Source: Paraglaciecola marina (GTDB taxonomy: Bacteria; Pseudomonadota; Gammaproteobacteria; Enterobacterales; Alteromonadaceae). Taken from it: DNA of 64,000 nt. The translations under genes were made by a program, and so were the position numbers. The stretch covers positions 124,001 through 188,000 of the forward strand of contig NZ_SAIS01000008.1 in the NCBI RefSeq assembly GCF_004360155.1, given 5' to 3'. Numbering within the stretch: position 1 is the stretch's first letter; the number at the start of each line of letters is the position of its first letter. The notes beneath the pieces were generated by a model. It was not told where the DNA came from and made no database searches. It worked only from the letters and a program-made list of their open reading frames with translations. Shown in pieces: positions 36,330-45,258 of this stretch.

Positions 36330-36343
36330 TTGATGTGGATCAA
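36330..36343. promoter_or_regulatory. FNR box upstream of the universal stress protein gene
   Basis: TTGAT-GTGG-ATCAA is a perfect match to TTGATnnnnATCAA. A possible -10, TTAAAT at 36365-36370, would put the box centre near -41, the class II activator position. Confidence 0.88.
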
Positions 36344-36465
36344 TACACATTTTTCTCAATACTCTTAAATAACCGACATACAAATGATTAAACTACTAGA
36401 TGTAATGGTTCATTTTACAGATCAGTAGTTTTAACTGGATAAAATCAACTTAAAGGTATGGGGAT

Positions 36466-36888
36466 ATGGACCATTATAAAAAAGTTATTGTGGCAATTGA
36501 TATTTTTTCAGAACATCAAAAAGTATTGGAACGTGCTAAAAAGCTCGCTAATAGCCCCGAAGATTTAACCTTGATTTATGCTACGTTACCGCAACTATAT
36601 TTCGAATCTTATGGGTATTCCTTAGGAACCGACTTTATCAGTGATAACCAAAAAAATGCTAATGAAGCGCTAGTGACTTTAGCTCAGAAACACGATATTC
36701 CTGATGACCAAGTATTTGCCCCCATTGGTGATCCTGCGGATGAGATCCATGCTCTTGCGGAAAGGTTAGAGGCTGATTTAATTGTCGTAGGCACCCATGG
36801 TAAAAGTGGTTTGAAATTACTATTAGGCTCAACGGCAAATGCTGTTTTACATGGTGCTAAATGTGACGTTTTAGCTGTTAAAATATAA
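36466..36888 (+). CDS. Universal stress protein (UspA family)
   Basis: 140-residue single Usp domain, starting with the beta strand KVIVAIDIFSEHQ. The ATP-binding motif Gly-x2-Gly-x9-Gly-Ser/Thr is seen in GTHGKSGLKLLLGSTANAVL (about 110-129). The gene is behind a perfect FNR box, so expression should rise when oxygen falls. Convergent with fixJ. GGGGATATGG just before the ATG serves as ribosome site. Confidence 0.9.
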   Translation: MDHYKKVIVAIDIFSEHQKVLERAKKLANSPEDLTLIYATLPQLYFESYGYSLGTDFISDNQKNANEALVTLAQKHDIPDDQVFAPIGDPADEIHALAERLEADLIVVGTHGKSGLKLLLGSTANAVLHGAKCDVLAVKI

Positions 36889-36902
36889 AGGTTACAACTA
36901 CG

Positions 36903-37538
36903 CTAATGGCAAGATAAGCCCATAACTACAAGCTCTGCTAAGGATTTGGCTTGCATTTTTTCCATTACATTAGCCCGGTGGATTTCTATGGTACGTTGGC
37001 TTAAATTTAATTCGTTGGCGATAAATTTGTTGGCGTGACCGGCGATCACTTTTTCCATTATTTGTTTTTCTCTTTTAGTTAAAGTGTCTGCACGTTTTTG
37101 TATTTGTACTTGTTGCAACACCTCAGTTTGGCTAGCTTGATTATTGGCTAATACATGTTGAATACAATCTAACAGTGCTTGTTCTCTAAATGGTTTTTGA
37201 ATAAATTCCACTGCACCTTGTTTCATAGCTTCAACTGCTAATGGCACATCACCATGGCCAGATAAAAAAATTATCGGCAAATGACAGTCCAGTGTTTTTA
37301 GTTTTTGCTGACATTCCATGCCACTCATCCCGGGCATCCTTATGTCCAATACTATACACCCAGCTAAAATGGCAAAGTCATTCTCATCATAGGCTTCCAG
37401 AAAAGCAATGGCATTAGGGTAAGTTTTGTTGGCAATTGACATTGAATCTAACAATAAACTGATGGAGTCAAGAACGGCTTCGTCATCGTCAATTAAATGA
37501 ACTAGTGAATCTGTCAGGCCTTGTGGGGTAGTAGTCAT
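36903..37538 (-). CDS. fixJ: FixJ-family response regulator
   Basis: Receiver domain (residues 1-130): acidic pair in HLIDDDEA, phosphoacceptor D65 in CIVLDIRMPGMSG, and the lysine in EFIQKPFREQALL. The C-terminal LuxR/FixJ-type helix-turn-helix (about 145-211) has LTKREKQIMEKVIAGHANKF, then ELNLSQRTIEIHRANVMEKM. 211 residues, as in rhizobial FixJ. It lies 11 nt after the sensor gene, so the two form a two-component operon. Targets probably include fnr next door, by analogy with FixJ-fixK. Confidence 0.92.
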   Translation of the reverse strand: MTTTPQGLTDSLVHLIDDDEAVLDSISLLLDSMSIANKTYPNAIAFLEAYDENDFAILAGCIVLDIRMPGMSGMECQQKLKTLDCHLPIIFLSGHGDVPLAVEAMKQGAVEFIQKPFREQALLDCIQHVLANNQASQTEVLQQVQIQKRADTLTKREKQIMEKVIAGHANKFIANELNLSQRTIEIHRANVMEKMQAKSLAELVVMGLSCH

Positions 37539-37549
37539 ATTTTTTATTA

Positions 37550-38731
37550 CTATTTTTCAATGTGAGGTAAGGTTTTGGCACCAGTAGCAGGCAAAGTAAA
37601 GGTAAATATACTGCCAAATGGCTCACCTTTAAGATAGGTAAGTTTGCCCCCATGGGCTTCAATGATAGTTTGACTAATAGATAAACCAACTCCCATTCCA
37701 GATGCTTTAGTGGTGAAAAAGGGTAAAAATAAGGACGATTCTTGTTCTTTGCTTATCCCGACGCCAAAGTCTTTTACTGATACTTCTATATTTTTTTCGC
37801 CCGCCCAATGAGTACTGATCTGAATAGCCGCAGAAGGGCGCCCTTGAAGAGAATCTATGGCGTTGTTTATTAAATTAAATAATACTTGTTGTATTTGAAT
37901 ATCGTCAATATTAACCATAGGACGTGGGTCATTTGAAAGCTTTAATTTAATGCCATGCTCTAGTATGCGGGTGTCTATCTCAGCTAAATTTAGGGTGTTT
38001 TTTATTAAGGAGCTTAAGTTAACAGTGGTTCGAATAACCTGTCCTTTTTTTACAAAATTTCTAAGACGGCTTATTACTTCGCTAGCGCGGTGGGTTTGAG
38101 CACTAATTTTGTCTAAGGTAGCTTTAACCTTAACTAATGATGGGTCATCAGATTTTGGTTGATATTGCTCAATAAAGTTTCGGCAGGCTTGTGAGTAACT
38201 AGTGATTGCTGTAAGGGGTTGGTTGATCTCATGGGCAATGCCTGCAGCCATTTCGCCCATAGTACTTAACCTAGTAAATTGGGCTAACCTTTCTCGACTT
38301 TCATTTAAATCTGCTTGTACCTTCATACGATCACTAATATCTCGAATGATACCAACAAATTGTGGATGGCTAGATTTCTTGACTTCGCCAACCGACAGCT
38401 CAATAGGGAAAATTTCACCACTACGTTTTTGAGCTTTTACTTCACGGCCAATACCAATTATGCGAGCTTGGCGGGTATGATTGAAATGCTCTAAATAGCC
38501 GTCGTGAGCATCTTGATAGGGTTGTGGCATTAAAACTCGAACGTTTTCACCAATGACTTCTGTTGCTTGATATCCAAACATTCTTTCTGCTGCATGGTTA
38601 AAAACCTCAATAGAACCCAGATGATCTATTACTATCATTGCATCAACAGCTGCATCGAGTAAGGCTAGAAACTGTGCATTGGTATCAAGTGGATTGGGTT
38701 TGTGAAGGCTAGTTGGATCGATATTTTTCAA
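37550..38731 (-). CDS. fixL: FixL-like oxygen-sensing histidine kinase
   Basis: PAS domain (about residues 20-135), then HisKA and HATPase. In rhizobial FixL the haem ligand His (H200 in B. japonicum) is followed 20 residues later by R220 in IIGIGR. Here H76 (PYQDAHDGY) and R96 (IIGIGRE) have exactly that spacing, so haem binding is likely. The phospho-His is H167 in AGIAHEINQPLTAI. N, G1 and G2 boxes of the ATPase are QVLFNLINNAIDSLQ, VKDFGVGIS and ASGMGVGLSISQTI. No membrane segment, so it is a soluble sensor. Operon with fixJ, divergent from fnr. Confidence 0.9.
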   Translation of the reverse strand: MKNIDPTSLHKPNPLDTNAQFLALLDAAVDAMIVIDHLGSIEVFNHAAERMFGYQATEVIGENVRVLMPQPYQDAHDGYLEHFNHTRQARIIGIGREVKAQKRSGEIFPIELSVGEVKKSSHPQFVGIIRDISDRMKVQADLNESRERLAQFTRLSTMGEMAAGIAHEINQPLTAITSYSQACRNFIEQYQPKSDDPSLVKVKATLDKISAQTHRASEVISRLRNFVKKGQVIRTTVNLSSLIKNTLNLAEIDTRILEHGIKLKLSNDPRPMVNIDDIQIQQVLFNLINNAIDSLQGRPSAAIQISTHWAGEKNIEVSVKDFGVGISKEQESSLFLPFFTTKASGMGVGLSISQTIIEAHGGKLTYLKGEPFGSIFTFTLPATGAKTLPHIEK

Positions 38732-38834
38732 ATAAAACGCTCCTAAATAGGGAAAACTAGGTATTAACCGAAATAATTTACGCAGAATAACGAATATATC
38801 AGCTCAAAGCTTACCGCTAGTATTTATCTAAAGG

Positions 38835-38848
38835 CTGATCTTAATCAA
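38835..38848. promoter_or_regulatory. FNR box upstream of fnr
   Basis: CTGAT-CTTA-ATCAA matches 9 of 10 bases of the FNR consensus. It lies 39 nt before the fnr ATG, just ahead of a possible -10 TATAAC (38861-38866), so it covers the -35 region; that place suits autorepression, as reported for E. coli fnr. Confidence 0.7.
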
Positions 38849-38886
38849 GGGCAGTCAATTTATAACATTAATCCGAGGAGTGTAAA

Positions 38887-39660
38887 ATGTCTCAATATGT
38901 TGCTCAACAATCATCATTGTGCCAAAAATGTTCTATGTCAGCTATGTGTATAGAAAAAGCATGTGATAGTAAGGTTAACGTAAAAGTGAGATCTCATAAG
39001 ATATTTCATAAATCAGATGCATTGTTTAGAGATGGTGAGAGATTCGACGCTATTTATATTTTACGGTCTGGTTCAGTTAAATCATCATTGTTGTCTGGGA
39101 CTGGCCAAGAACAAATCACTGGATTTTATTTTCCAGGTGACTTACTAGGACTAGATGGGTTTGAAAAAGGTGCCCATAGTCAAACTTTGAAATTTTTAGA
39201 AACTAGCAGTGTTTGCCGTATTGCTTTTAGTGAGTTAGACGCCGCCATGGCTAACTCTCAGAGTATTAGGTACAATTTATTACAAGGTATGAGCCAAGCC
39301 CTTAACGATGACGATAAGTTTTTACTTAATGCCCATTGCATGAATGCCAGTCAAAAGTTTGCGTCATTTATACTTAATTTATCTAATAAGTTTGAGAGTC
39401 GTGGGTTATCCAGTCATAATTTCGATTTGAGTATGAGCCGTGTGGATATTGCCAATTATCTAGGTATGGCTGTTGAAACTGTAAGTCGTCAGTTAACACA
39501 ATTGCAAAAAGATCACATCATAGAAGTAAACAAACGCAACATTAGTATCGTTGATTTCTCAAGGTTGCAAGATTGCTTAAATGATGAAAAAGCCATGTCT
39601 AAACACTTTATTCCATTAATGAGTAAAGGTTTTACAAGCCAAGTTTCAGCATCCCATTAA
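38887..39660 (+). CDS. fnr: FNR-type oxygen-sensing transcription regulator (4Fe-4S)
   Basis: CRP/FNR-family activator. Three N-terminal cysteines C12, C15, C21 have the Cys-x2-Cys-x5-Cys spacing of FNR, and C110 (TSSVCRIAF) corresponds to FNR C122, so a [4Fe-4S] oxygen sensor is expected. The cyclic-nucleotide fold spans about 35-150. The recognition helix (VETVSRQLTQLQ) keeps E197, S200 and R201, the residues that read TTGAT. 257 residues. CGAGGAG before the ATG is a good ribosome site. Divergent from fixLJ. An extra cysteine, C26, and C151 are also present. Confidence 0.95.
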   Translation: MSQYVAQQSSLCQKCSMSAMCIEKACDSKVNVKVRSHKIFHKSDALFRDGERFDAIYILRSGSVKSSLLSGTGQEQITGFYFPGDLLGLDGFEKGAHSQTLKFLETSSVCRIAFSELDAAMANSQSIRYNLLQGMSQALNDDDKFLLNAHCMNASQKFASFILNLSNKFESRGLSSHNFDLSMSRVDIANYLGMAVETVSRQLTQLQKDHIIEVNKRNISIVDFSRLQDCLNDEKAMSKHFIPLMSKGFTSQVSASH

Positions 39661-39705
39661 TAACTCATAGCGAAAAGTATTACTTAGACCTAAGCATAAA
39701 TCTGT

Positions 39706-40695
39706 TTAGGTCACGTTATTCTGTATACTTCCATCAAGTTCGAACTGATTGATATTGGCTATGGTGGTTTCTGCGATATTTAGCATAGCTTCATGGGTAA
39801 AGAACCCTTGATGGCTGGTTATAATAACATTAGGGAAGCTTGTTAATCTTGCTAGTACATCATCTTGAATGCCTCGAGCGGATAAGTCTTCAAAAAACAG
39901 GGTTTCTTCTTCTTCGTATACATCTAAACCTATTAAGCCCACCTTGCCTTTTTTAAGAGCGTGGATCATGGCTTTACTATCAACTAATTTGCCGCGGCTA
40001 GTATTAATGATAGATACACCATCTTGCATTTTTTCAAGAGCCGCTTCATTTATTAAATGATGTGTTTCAGGCGTTAAAGGACAGTGTAATGACACTACGT
40101 TGGCCTGAGTATATATTTCTTCGAGTGACACATAACGTGCCCCTAATTTTGTGCAGTCATCGCTTGGAAAGGGGTCATATGCTAGTATTTCACATCCAAA
40201 ACCATTCATGATTTTTACAAATGCTTGACCTATTTTTCCGGTACCAATTACGCCTATGGTTTTATTGTGAAGGTCAAATCCCATCAAGTTGCTAATTGAA
40301 AAATCTCCTTCGCGAGTTCGGTTAAAGGCCCGGTGTATACCTCGGTTTAAACAAAGTAACAAACCTACAGCGTGTTCGGCAATAGAATAAGGAGAATAAG
40401 CAGGAACTCGAACCACGGGTAAATTAAGTCTTTTCGCGCTAGGTAAATCTACATGGTTAAAGCCGGCCGAACGCAGTGCGATTAACTCAACGCCTTTATC
40501 TTTTAAAGTAGTAAGTACATCTGCGTCTAAAGTATCATTGATAAAAGCGCACACCACTTTTGCATCTTGAACTAAAGACGCAGTCTCTTTATTTAAGTGA
40601 CAAGATAGATAATGTATTTCATGTCCAGATTTTTGATTGGCTTTGTCAAAATATTCTTGGTCATACTGCTTGGTATTATAAAAAGCAATTTTCAT
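39706..40695 (-). CDS. ldhA: D-lactate dehydrogenase (fermentative, LdhA-like)
   Basis: NADH-dependent reduction of pyruvate to D-lactate. The Rossmann motif is GVIGTGKIGQAF (about residues 147-158), and the catalytic Arg, Glu and His of the D-2-hydroxyacid family are in NTSRGKLVD, LDVYEEEE and TSHQGFFTHEA. 329 residues is the same as E. coli LdhA. Upstream are a FNR box at about -41 and a TATGAT -10, so anaerobic induction is likely, fitting its fermentative role. Confidence 0.93.
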   Translation of the reverse strand: MKIAFYNTKQYDQEYFDKANQKSGHEIHYLSCHLNKETASLVQDAKVVCAFINDTLDADVLTTLKDKGVELIALRSAGFNHVDLPSAKRLNLPVVRVPAYSPYSIAEHAVGLLLCLNRGIHRAFNRTREGDFSISNLMGFDLHNKTIGVIGTGKIGQAFVKIMNGFGCEILAYDPFPSDDCTKLGARYVSLEEIYTQANVVSLHCPLTPETHHLINEAALEKMQDGVSIINTSRGKLVDSKAMIHALKKGKVGLIGLDVYEEEETLFFEDLSARGIQDDVLARLTSFPNVIITSHQGFFTHEAMLNIAETTIANINQFELDGSIQNNVT

Positions 40696-40739
40696 TTTTC
40701 TCTCTTGTATGTTGTAGTTAAACTAAACGGTTGAGCCGT

Positions 40740-40745
40740 ATCATA
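40740..40745 (-). promoter_or_regulatory. Probable -10 of ldhA
   Basis: TATGAT on the minus strand (5/6 of consensus) puts the start near 40733 and the FNR box centre (40773.5) at about -41, the class II FNR arrangement. Confidence 0.6.
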
Positions 40746-40766
40746 CATCTAGTTCATATTGTCTCA

Positions 40767-40780
40767 TTGACTTAAATCAA
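40767..40780. promoter_or_regulatory. FNR box in the ldhA / cation-efflux intergenic region
   Basis: TTGAC-TTAA-ATCAA matches 9 of 10 positions. The spacing fits activation of ldhA on the minus strand; it is about 51 nt upstream of the divergent efflux gene and could affect that too. Confidence 0.8.
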
Positions 40781-40830
40781 CAAGAAAATGTATTTGGGGT
40801 GTTTCACAGTTCGTGTATAGGTGACGTATT

Positions 40831-41670
40831 ATGAATGTTAGAAAAGTACTATTAGTTGAAGGGTGTGTTAATGCCATTATTTCCATAAGCAAGTTCGCAG
40901 TAGGTCTAAGTACTGGATCAGCGGTTATTGTCGCAGATGCTATCCACTCTTTAGCAGATTTGGCGAACAATATTTTTGCTTGGCTAGCAGTTAAGATTGC
41001 TCAGACTCCAGCTGATGATGATCACCCCTATGGTCATCAAAAATTTGAGCAATTAGCTATATTCGTTTTAGCCTCTTTACTTGTCGTTGTGGCCTTTGAG
41101 GTTTTGGTCAGTGCAGTTAAGCGCTTTGGTGAGCCAGTCACCCAAAGTAAGTTAGGTTTAATTATACTGATGACTACTGTAGTGCTTAATATTGGGTTGA
41201 CGCTATGGGAAGGTTATTGGGCGAGACGTCTCAATTCAGATTTGTTGAAAGCAGATGCAAGTCATACATTGTCTGATGTCATGACCAGTATTGCTGTGAT
41301 TGTTGGTTGGCAACTCGCAGCGTTAGGCTATTTTTGGGTTGATAGTGTGTTTGCCATGATTGTCGCTAGTATTATCTTTTACTTGGCGTTTTCTCTTTTC
41401 AAACGTGCCATACCAATACTTGTAGACCAAAGTCAGTTTGGTCGTGGAGAATTAATGGCAGCCATTGAAAAAATCCCCGCGGTTAATACAGTCCTAAATG
41501 TTCGTTCTCGTGATTCAGGGAAGGGACAGATAGCCGACGTGTCAGTTACAGTTTCTGCAAGTTTAAGTACAATAGAATCCCACAAAATTGCTGACTCTAT
41601 TGAACAAGTTTTAGCAGAAAACTTCGATATCCAAGATGTTATGGTACATATCGAGCCAGACCAACATTAA
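40831..41670 (+). CDS. Cation diffusion facilitator (CDF) family metal efflux protein
   Basis: Inner-membrane divalent-metal/proton antiporter. Six hydrophobic segments are visible in the first 200 residues, with the CDF metal motifs DAIHSLADLANN (HxxxD, second helix) and DASHTLSDVMTS (HxxxD, fifth helix), and the HPYGHQKFEQL motif between. The cytoplasmic C-terminal domain (about 205-279) ends in IQDVMVHIEPD. 279 residues; the metal cannot be told (Fe/Zn/Mn). Ribosome site AGGTGAC near 40820. Confidence 0.9.
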   Translation: MNVRKVLLVEGCVNAIISISKFAVGLSTGSAVIVADAIHSLADLANNIFAWLAVKIAQTPADDDHPYGHQKFEQLAIFVLASLLVVVAFEVLVSAVKRFGEPVTQSKLGLIILMTTVVLNIGLTLWEGYWARRLNSDLLKADASHTLSDVMTSIAVIVGWQLAALGYFWVDSVFAMIVASIIFYLAFSLFKRAIPILVDQSQFGRGELMAAIEKIPAVNTVLNVRSRDSGKGQIADVSVTVSASLSTIESHKIADSIEQVLAENFDIQDVMVHIEPDQH

Positions 41671-41731
41671 TAGTGATTGCTAGAGAATAAATCGGTTAAA
41701 TTCAAATGTAGCAAAAATAATAAATTTGATG

Positions 41732-42199
41732 TTATAGGACTCTATATTGACCATAATGAGTATAATTGATTGGCTCAACTTTATATTTAGGTTGCAAAAA
41801 AGCAATTAGATCAATGAGCTCTTGTACTGTCATAACATCGTTAAAAACTCTCATCTTGGAAGTACCATCGGGATTAACTACCTTTTCATCTAAATTGTTG
41901 TTCCTTGGTACCAGTTTATGTGAAGGGTTGATAACTGACGTGACAAGTTGAGCATAGGTCTTAACGATAGATGAGGTTCCACCTAGAAGTACTGGAGTGT
42001 CAAACTCCTTAACCAAAGTTTTGTCTTGATACCCTTCTAATGAATGACACGCTAAGCATTTATATTTCATAAATACTTTTTCTCCAGCAACTATATCACC
42101 TTTAGGTAAACTAAATCCCTTGGGAGATTCAGGACCAAACTCACAAGCACTAATACCTAGAAATATCGTAAAAATAATAATAAATCGTATTAATTTCAT
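41732..42199 (-). CDS. Cytochrome c lipoprotein (monohaem)
   Basis: The signal peptide MKLIRFIIIFTIFLGISAC ends in a lipobox (Cys 19), so the protein is a lipid-anchored periplasmic c-type cytochrome. The single CLACH haem motif follows at about residues 51-55, and a Met in the region KMRVFND or VMTVQEL may be the distal ligand. The frame is open to 42253, but only ATG 42197-42199 gives a proper signal peptide (155 residues). A FNR box about 87 nt upstream suggests induction at low oxygen. The C terminus (YTHYGQYRVL) is unusual. Partner oxidase unknown. Confidence 0.87.
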   Translation of the reverse strand: MKLIRFIIIFTIFLGISACEFGPESPKGFSLPKGDIVAGEKVFMKYKCLACHSLEGYQDKTLVKEFDTPVLLGGTSSIVKTYAQLVTSVINPSHKLVPRNNNLDEKVVNPDGTSKMRVFNDVMTVQELIDLIAFLQPKYKVEPINYTHYGQYRVL

Positions 42200-42279
42200 T
42201 TTATGCAACTTCTTTTGATGACAGAAGAGATAACCATAGTTGCAGATAGGCATCTTGGGAAAGCAAGCATGGTAGTTTA

Positions 42280-42293
42280 TTGATGTATGTCAA
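42280..42293. promoter_or_regulatory. FNR box upstream of the cytochrome c gene
   Basis: TTGAT-GTAT-GTCAA matches 9 of 10 positions, upstream of the minus-strand cytochrome gene. The promoter hexamers are less clear: TATCTG at 42243-42248 (minus) is a weak candidate. Confidence 0.7.
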
Positions 42294-44439: not shown

Positions 44440-45081
44440 CTAAGGTTGAATATTCTTTGGCTGATACTTGTCTAAAGGCATTATGTTTTGGAGATTAAGT
44501 AAAGTGTTATACAGAGAATCAACCAACTCTCTATTAGCTAAAAACGCTGGTAACTTACCTCCTGGATCCCCGCCGCCTTGGTAGCTTATTTCAGTCACAC
44601 CCTTTGAGATAGGGGTCGCTTTCCAAGTACCCTGCATGTTTTTCATCCTAACAAATTTTGGATGGGCCGGGATTAGGGAGCTTTTATCCGTAAGTTCTAT
44701 TATTACCGAGTCTTCTATATAAGAAATGGTAGAATAGGTCACCATGTCACGATCTTTAACCGGCCATGGGGCACCAAAAAACGTATTCACTAGACTTTCG
44801 GTAGCCGATACTTTTTCTAATATTTCGACTTTAATACAGTTGTGGATCCACTCCGGGCAAGCTTCGATATCATCAAATAATGCTATTAATGCCAAAGGAT
44901 GTGCATGTACTTGTGTTGTTGCAAGGACTTGGTTGTATCCAGAAGCAGTTTTTTGACTATAAACGCTAACATTATGTTTTTGTTTTTTAAGGTCCCAAGT
45001 CTCTGCATATGTTTGACTACAAAAAATTGCGCATATTAAGAGTATTAGGTATGTCACTGTTTTTGATGTTGAGCATTGCAT
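44440..45081 (-). CDS. Exported START-domain lipid-binding protein
   Basis: Signal peptide with hydrophobic core TYLILLICAIFC and a cleavage site near TYA/ET, so probably periplasmic. The mature part has START features: ALIALFDDIEACPEWIHNC, GAPWPVKDRDMVTYS, and a C-terminal long helix (ANRELVDSLYNTLLNLQNI). The domain forms a hydrophobic pocket for lipids or similar ligands; the ligand here is unknown. 213 residues. Divergent from the thrS leader. Confidence 0.87.
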   Translation of the reverse strand: MQCSTSKTVTYLILLICAIFCSQTYAETWDLKKQKHNVSVYSQKTASGYNQVLATTQVHAHPLALIALFDDIEACPEWIHNCIKVEILEKVSATESLVNTFFGAPWPVKDRDMVTYSTISYIEDSVIIELTDKSSLIPAHPKFVRMKNMQGTWKATPISKGVTEISYQGGGDPGGKLPAFLANRELVDSLYNTLLNLQNIMPLDKYQPKNIQP

Positions 45082-45145: not shown

Positions 45146-45167
45146 CACCCTTTTTTGGGTGTTTTTT
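45146..45167 (+). terminator. Intrinsic terminator in the thrS leader
   Basis: CACCC (45146-45150), six-base T loop, GGGTG (45157-45161), then six T residues. It is about 92 nt before thrS and about 35 nt after the proposed start, so it would truncate most transcripts unless relieved; a candidate attenuator. A second promoter downstream of it would be an alternative. Confidence 0.75.
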
Positions 45168-45258
45168 ATTTTTATCAATCGGTTTAATAGTTTAAAGCTG
45201 ATTCAATATATTCGCATGTGGCGCTTGGTAGGTGTCACCACTGCATTAAGGATTCTAT

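Follow-up and report, generated by a model that had tools for sequence, protein, structure and literature searches.

How is the response to falling oxygen wired where a FixL-type sensor kinase, its response regulator FixJ and the oxygen-labile regulator FNR are encoded side by side? The question is raised by a block of seven genes in the marine bacterium Paraglaciecola marina, at positions 36,330 to 42,293 of a 64,000-nucleotide stretch (contig NZ_SAIS01000008.1 of assembly GCF_004360155.1, positions 124,001 to 188,000; hereafter the window, and the block the island). The window genome, coded G000, comprises 4.64 Mb in 75 contigs. Genes were called from open reading frames (ORFs) and Pfam/NCBIfam profile matches; G codes denote genomes and L codes the loci compared, and 21 of the 39 genomes sampled as relatives belong to the window's own genus. 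The comparisons favor a two-step low-oxygen switch, to which we assign a probability of about 0.72, in which FixLJ would drive fnr and FNR would then drive its targets.

The sensors and the element before fnr

A first-pass annotation of this DNA had described the kinase as a haem-PAS FixL-type protein and the regulator as a four-cysteine FNR, and both descriptions were borne out. FixL residues 23-144 aligned with Bradyrhizobium japonicum FixL (1dp6, 6.5e-32) over a segment covering the histidine of the HD-Y motif and the arginine of the GIGR motif, which we take to be the proximal haem ligand and the distal arginine, respectively. Both residues were invariant in 14 of 14 aligned FixL sequences, the window's included. 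HisKA and HATPase domains were detected with Pfam, and the NCBIfam FixL family was the best-scoring family for the protein, with a match beginning at profile position 123. FixJ contained a receiver and a LuxR-type helix-turn-helix (HTH) domain, found its best match in FixJ, and aligned to B. japonicum FixJ through the HTH. In FNR, Cys12, Cys15, Cys21 and Cys110 aligned to the cysteines of Aliivibrio FNR (5cvr/5e44, 1.8e-41); the protein thus has all four of the cluster cysteines whose absence marks FixK. A search of the window genome with this protein as query returned this one match only, a result that a very divergent paralogue could escape, as CRP did. In the FNR tree, the window protein grouped with clade A (support 97/99). 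Another clade A FNR, that of G016 (L064 9285-10055), has an arginine at the position of the third N-terminal cysteine of its relatives and a cysteine two residues on.

Printing and aligning the fnr upstream regions brought out a conserved block, TAGGTAttttCCGaaatnnatTACGCnnAnnnCGaATAT; in the window, the first unit of the element is TAGGTATTAACC and the second lies around TTACGCAGAATAACG. For comparison, the Sinorhizobium meliloti FixJ site is given as TAAGTAATTTCCCTTA, with elements TAAG and CSNAATWT, in the accessible part of PMC4999443. When fnr promoters were scanned with this 16-nt site alone, the window scored 12/16 (shuffle p 0.04), as did two clade A rows. A model of the element, R1, was then built from 21 copies in relatives with the window left out; its best match in the entire window genome was the copy before fnr (46 bits, E 1.9e-11). 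The element was present before fnr at 5/5 clade A and 7/7 clade B loci and, in full, at five of the six clade C loci, the sixth (L080, from G001, where fixL is split) giving a weak match. It was not found at five other fnr loci (L083-L087). In six of the seven clade B genomes fnr lies ~8-27 kb from fixL, and there the block accompanies fnr, not fixL; at L081, the element stays beside fixL although fnr is absent.

The first 12 nt of the element resembled the S. meliloti FixJ site, with mean matches of 9.0/12 over 22 fnr-type elements and 10.4/12 over nine elements that precede a second gene, described below; neither value was reached in any of 1000 column permutations. A -10-like hexamer (4/6 or better) stood 20-22 nt after the element in 21/22 cases, compared with a shuffle mean of 5.4 and a largest shuffle value of 12. 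In the window this hexamer is TAGTAT, which would therefore place the start of transcription at ~38830 and the FNR box that precedes fnr at ~+12. FixJ probably controls fnr directly, because the element ranks first in the genome, carries a FixJ half-site, stays with fnr where fnr is distant from fixL, and co-occurs with a compact fixL.

As oxygen falls, FixL would, like others of its family, lose its haem-bound O2 and phosphorylate FixJ. In the circuit proposed here, phosphorylated FixJ would bind positions 38758-38796 and raise transcription of fnr. The FNR so made would still need its own oxygen-labile 4Fe-4S cluster and would therefore be active only at lower oxygen, where it would use class II sites to switch on usp and ldhA, probably activate the cytochrome c lipoprotein gene (cytc) from a class I site, and repress fnr itself from a position immediately past the FixJ-dependent start. 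A single regulator would thus have its quantity set by FixLJ and its activity by the cluster. What the analysis establishes is the genes, the residues, the conserved sites and their spacing and, in part, the co-occurrence with fixL; we infer binding, with good support from sequence for that of FixJ, as well as direction of effect, oxygen thresholds and feedback.

FNR sites and promoter spacing

A motif scan recovered each of the four FNR boxes claimed earlier, one perfect and three matching in nine of ten positions (Table 1), together with a fifth 9/10 match (38159) inside fixL. Conservation was scored as the best site in each upstream row of relatives, the rows including some paralogues. A box with at most one mismatch was present before cytc in 8/8 rows (perfect in 7), before usp in 12/18 rows (perfect in 7) and before ldhA in 8/14, compared with 2/7 orthologues of the CDF transporter gene and 0/12 control upstream regions (patatin-like, crr, dapE and arsC).

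A gap of 21 nt between box and -10 hexamer corresponds to the class II activating distance of FNR sites. Rows with a box, the window's included, were searched for a -10-like hexamer (4/6 or better) at this exact gap, with shuffles as control. Such a hexamer was found in 12/13 rows for usp (shuffle mean 1.5, largest 5) and, among nine ldhA rows with a box, in six of the eight that were long enough (shuffle mean 0.8, largest 4); for cytc and fnr, it was found in 1/9 and 1/7 rows, respectively, the single fnr case (L083) lying outside clade A. The cytc promoters instead had TATGTT or TATGGT at a gap of 41-42 in the window, L063, L064 and L083 (exact gap 41 in 3/7 rows long enough), and a class I site therefore fits. 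The earlier proposal that two sites sit near -41 thus held for usp and ldhA; fnr lacks such a -10, and the cytc box suits a position of about -61 better, if less firmly. On their kept position and -10 spacing, the boxes before usp, ldhA and cytc are read as genuine FNR sites; the CDF gene, across the intergenic region from ldhA, is only a possible FNR target.

The box before fnr behaved differently, and its interpretation as an activating -41 site was not upheld. It was found with at most one mismatch in 5/5 clade A rows, 0/7 clade B rows, 0/6 clade C rows and 1/5 others, and its center lies 45 nt from the ATG in the window and in four of the five clade A relatives. Its position just downstream of the putative FixJ-dependent start suggests an operator for feedback repression. 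Alternatively, the box could activate fnr in a positive autoregulatory loop: in the Rhizobium leguminosarum network (PMC7888657), a distal site lets FnrN activate its own gene and a proximal one, with the repressing box at -2, serves repression, and in the window a TATAAC stands 12 nt after the box. The gap-21 hexamer of usp and ldhA is nonetheless absent from the window and all five clade A rows, and the box stands beyond the predicted FixJ-dependent -10, on its downstream side, so that we regard self-activation as somewhat unlikely and retain feedback repression as the reading of this site.

The element and the boxes across genomes

The next-best match to model R1 in the window genome (C3:196343, E 1.3e-4) precedes a gene for a 260-amino-acid protein (L204 6448-7230; G000:C3:196448-197227) that matches DUF1451 at a sub-threshold level only. 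This gene was found in 11/40 genomes, the window's own included, and as a broken copy in G001. The element lies ~100 nt upstream of the orthologues in G002, G006, G012, G015, G017 and G019, is weaker in G014 and G016, and is matched before the broken copy in G001. The 260-amino-acid gene is probably a second FixJ target. Because a gene unrelated to fnr carries the element, the element is better explained as a regulator's site than as a mere relic of the fnr lineage, and this is the stronger of the arguments for it. In G001, the broken second-target copy coincides with a fixL split into two ORFs (L080 8513-9719 and L260), as if this branch were decaying.

Co-occurrence with fixL was examined in 196 genomes of the family, a compact fixL being defined by at least 45% identity and an open frame of up to 442 amino acids. 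FixL was detected at E up to 1e-60 in 20 genomes, as 13 compact and seven long hybrid-like frames. The element was detected at E up to 0.001 in 14 genomes, in full in 12 (E up to 1.1e-5) and as a half-model match at E 9e-4 in two (G043 and G048). Compact fixL was present in 12/12 full-element genomes, nine of which had fed the model (including G067, the source of L093, and G045, the source of L101) and are thus in-sample; the other three (the window genome, G101 and G218) are independent positives, each with a compact fixL. A further 183 genomes are informative negatives, lacking both compact fixL and a full element. Among 40 relatives, the element was present in 14/14 genomes with compact fixL (13 in-sample).

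Besides the in-sample origin of most positives, several results speak against direct FixJ control of fnr and the switch built on it. The window proteins fell short of the NCBIfam cut-offs for the rhizobial FixL equivalog (349.8 bits, cut-off 850), the FixJ equivalog (237.7, cut-off 255) and the Fnr subfamily (193.6, cut-off 228). The first unit of the window element agrees with the S. meliloti site at no more than 8/12 positions, and the full model has no match at the S. meliloti fixK promoter (L246, L247), where the spacing differs: the exact 16-mer lies 85 nt before fixK, with downstream spacing unlike that of the element. A further 68 named fixL loci likewise gave no match to the model at E up to 1. 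G184 has compact fixL, yet the element was not detected there at E up to 0.001; among the 26 relatives without compact fixL, only G011 has the element (this genome is 84% complete, in-sample and without an equally good fixL match); G004, which lacks compact fixL, keeps a half-matching element before the 260-amino-acid gene; and G023 has fixL, yet no full element before that gene. Finally, the ccoN gene of the cbb3 oxidase is classically controlled by FixK/FNR; its 1.5 kb of upstream DNA contained no box at up to one mismatch.

Three broader proposals were discarded on the same results. A whole promoter architecture common to Paraglaciecola and rhizobia was rejected with the misses at L246 and L247, a tie of the element to all gammaproteobacterial fixLJ with the 68 loci lacking a match, and FNR control of ccoN with its box-free upstream region.

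Comparison of gene order, proposed as a check on the fixLJ-fnr block, showed the compact arrangement of the window to be one of several. Among six clade A loci (the window and L061-L065), fixLJ lies beside fnr in the window only, and the adjacency may therefore be recent. In G016, the order is usp-glgC-fnr-ldhA-CDF-cytc without fixLJ, glgC (L064 7798-9060), an ADP-glucose pyrophosphorylase-like gene by Pfam, taking the place that fixJ and fixL have in the window; G014, G017 and G019 show the same arrangement around fnr, the gene between usp and fnr being as long as glgC. In all four of these genomes, fixLJ is found elsewhere, beside a paralogue without the N-terminal cysteines. The closest named fixL loci were those of P. 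mesophila, P. chathamensis, P. polaris, P. arctica, P. sp. MB-3u-78, P. sp. 20A4 and one Alteromonadaceae strain; in the FixL tree, the window protein sits on a long branch without resolved placement, which bears on whether fixLJ was transferred from another lineage. Among 80 named fixL loci, ten had a CRP/FNR gene within 500 bp of fixL, eight from Alteromonadaceae (L093-L098, L100, L101) and the remaining two, L123 and L144, weak or unusual. Only L093 and L094 of the ten keep the cysteine motif; both types of regulator are thus found next to fixL.

These arrangements admit a second explanation, in which FixLJ and FNR owe their proximity to history alone, some other regulator binds the element, and control of FNR does not involve FixJ. 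The undetected S. meliloti promoter, the isolated adjacency in clade A and the element of G004 would all fit it. It must nevertheless account for three facts: the element genomes outside the model (G000, G101 and G218) all have compact fixL, a trait of 13/196; the unrelated second gene of fixLJ genomes is also preceded by the element; and the first unit resembles the FixJ site more closely than any of 1000 permutations. We therefore consider a purely historical association quite improbable and favor direct control by FixJ. Extended to the family, this reading would have FixJ directly drive whichever CRP/FNR paralogue has the element, the slot alternating between an oxygen-sensing FNR and a FixK-like protein that lacks the cysteines; in the window genome, the single FNR, made under FixJ and self-sensing, would repress itself at ~+12, so that two sensors in series would gate the response, with feedback and without FixK. 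To this wider statement we give slightly better than even odds.

The density of boxes, which the first-pass annotation had offered for scrutiny, proved high and not unique. The window contained 15 matches at up to one mismatch, compared with 4.49 in shuffles (standard deviation 2.29, largest 10), and four of its five intergenic boxes lie in the island, which was chosen after the fact and holds 988 of the window's 7691 intergenic bp. The fifth, also near-perfect, lies at 45165-45178 between a gene for a 213-amino-acid protein (44440-45081) and thrS. Across the whole genome, there were 28 perfect palindromes, compared with 12 for the reversed control, and 667 matches at up to one mismatch, compared with 364. 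Five boxes in an island-sized stretch had a Poisson P of 0.0019; ~1.5 such stretches are expected genome-wide, and density was therefore rejected as proof, the argument resting instead on conservation and placement. That the boxes are chance palindromes of an AT-rich genome, as that expectation and the location of 22/28 perfect palindromes inside ORFs might suggest, is scarcely credible; for usp, ldhA and cytc, the kept positions and -10 spacing described above, with 0/12 in controls, already refute it in large part. The six intergenic perfect palindromes include that of usp. The other five lie near cydA, a glgC-like gene, clpB, a RadA-like/PilZ pair and an outer-membrane protein pair; the cydA box is ~140 bp upstream of this gene for cytochrome bd oxidase subunit I (L221 1051-2637), and the glgC-like box ~250 bp upstream (L233 3014-4408).

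Known systems and the gene cluster

Among the known systems closest to the island is the FixLJ-FixK cascade, in which, according to PMC4999443, a haem-PAS FixL works with FixJ and the main target of FixJ is a CRP/FNR gene. The window shares these parts, and a similar FixJ half-site, with the cascades of Sinorhizobium, Bradyrhizobium and Caulobacter. It differs in that its target keeps the four cluster cysteines and in that the element has another spacing, with no cross-detection by the model. The earlier suggestion of a FixLJ-FixK-like cascade ending in a cluster-binding FNR is thus supported by the cysteines, the element and the half-site, and weakened by the S. meliloti promoter that the full model does not detect. 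A further difference from the nitrogen-fixation circuit is that no nifH match above the cut-off was found in the window genome; the control search passed the cut-off in 3/14 genomes.

Two oxygen sensors in one circuit, the other part of that suggestion, are also predicted here for the window; the principle has been demonstrated in R. leguminosarum, where, by the accessible account (PMC7888657), the hFixL-FxkR-FixK-FnrN pathway has a kinase prime a cluster-type FNR that acts at lower oxygen. Both systems would layer FixL and FNR sensing and place an FNR box near the start of the FNR gene, through which fnrN is repressed in R. leguminosarum. There, FxkR and the cluster-less FixK intervene, whereas in the window FixJ would apparently act directly on fnr, and a second FNR/FixK was not found in the genome. 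The loci of P. arctica, P. sp. MB-3u-78 and relatives (L075-L080, L095-L098, L100, L101) share with the window the element (weaker in L080) and the divergent position of the regulator gene beside fixL; the paralogue there, unlike the window FNR, lacks the N-terminal cysteine motif, and a FixK-like protein would therefore fill the slot. With the FNR of E. coli and Aliivibrio, the window protein shares the four cysteines, the recognition helix and TTGATNNNNATCAA sites; it differs in standing on a branch apart from the canonical-type FNR of other family genomes and in being expressed, apparently, under FixJ. Outside rhizobia, FixLJ of Burkholderia dolosa induces a fixK reporter at low oxygen; this is a betaproteobacterium, the target is called fixK, and the main text of PMC5234846, to the extent accessible, does not contain the word fnr. 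Auto-repression of FixK2, by a mechanism given as unknown, is mentioned in the accessible part of PMC9104804. Among the matches listed in the open-access literature, none was recognizable as dealing with FixLJ in Alteromonadales or with a direct action of FixJ on an FNR of the cluster type. Collectively, the parts are ordinary; their wiring, in which FixJ would feed into a cluster-type FNR without FixK, is unusual and fairly well supported.

If correct, this arrangement would bring free-living marine Gammaproteobacteria within the range of the FixLJ cascade, in a genome with no nifH match above the cut-off, and would stack two oxygen sensors on one protein. Relatives with and without the iron-sulfur cysteines beside fixLJ would then offer a natural experiment on layered oxygen sensing; why bacteria layer such sensors is a question posed for rhizobia in the available portions of PMC4999443 and PMC7888657. 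With the element, FixJ targets could also be sought beyond the Alphaproteobacteria.

The seven genes of the cluster were confirmed as initially described by their ORFs and Pfam/NCBIfam matches (Table 1).

Table 1. Genes and predicted regulatory sites of the island, in window coordinates
Feature	Position	Strand	Basis or remark
usp, universal stress protein	36466..36888	+	Pfam Usp 6.4e-26
fixJ, response regulator with LuxR-type HTH	36903..37538	-	5xso B. japonicum FixJ 3.3e-49; NCBIfam
fixL, single haem-PAS histidine kinase, membrane part not seen	37550..38731	-	1dp6 6.5e-32 over PAS; HisKA, HATPase_c
FixJ-type conserved element, ~40 bp, before fnr	38758..38796	+	model R1, alignment A3, half-site test
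Putative -10 TAGTAT of FixJ-dependent fnr promoter	38818..38823	+	hexamer spacing after element
fnr, CRP/FNR regulator, four cluster-type cysteines	38887..39660	+	5cvr/5e44 1.8e-41
ldhA, D-lactate dehydrogenase-type D-2-hydroxyacid dehydrogenase	39706..40695	-	Pfam/NCBIfam
CDF cation transporter, intergenic region common with ldhA	40831..41670	+	TIGR01297 8.3e-59
cytc, cytochrome c lipoprotein (CxxCH), start perhaps 42199	41732..42253	-	Pfam Cytochrom_C 5.4e-5; lipobox LGISAC read in sequence
FNR box TTGATGTGGATCAA before usp, perfect	36330..36343	+	-10 TTAAAT at 36365-36370, class II spacing
FNR box CTGATCTTAATCAA before fnr, 9/10	38835..38848	+	~+12; putative autorepression operator
FNR box for ldhA, 9/10	40767..40780	-	-10 TATGAT at 40740-40745 (-), class II spacing
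FNR box before cytc, 9/10	42280..42293	-	TATGGT at gap 41, class I-like

One S. meliloti plasmid also carries a usp gene next to fixL, and fixT next to fixJ. FixT is a single receiver that inhibits FixL, as stated in the available text of PMC7078487. The window has no receiver gene 3' of fixJ. At 12 other loci (L066 7530-7961, L075 7763-8194 and ten more), a single-receiver gene, FixT-like by position, lies 3' of fixJ, and in these receivers the usual phospho-acceptor aspartate seems to be replaced by glutamate.

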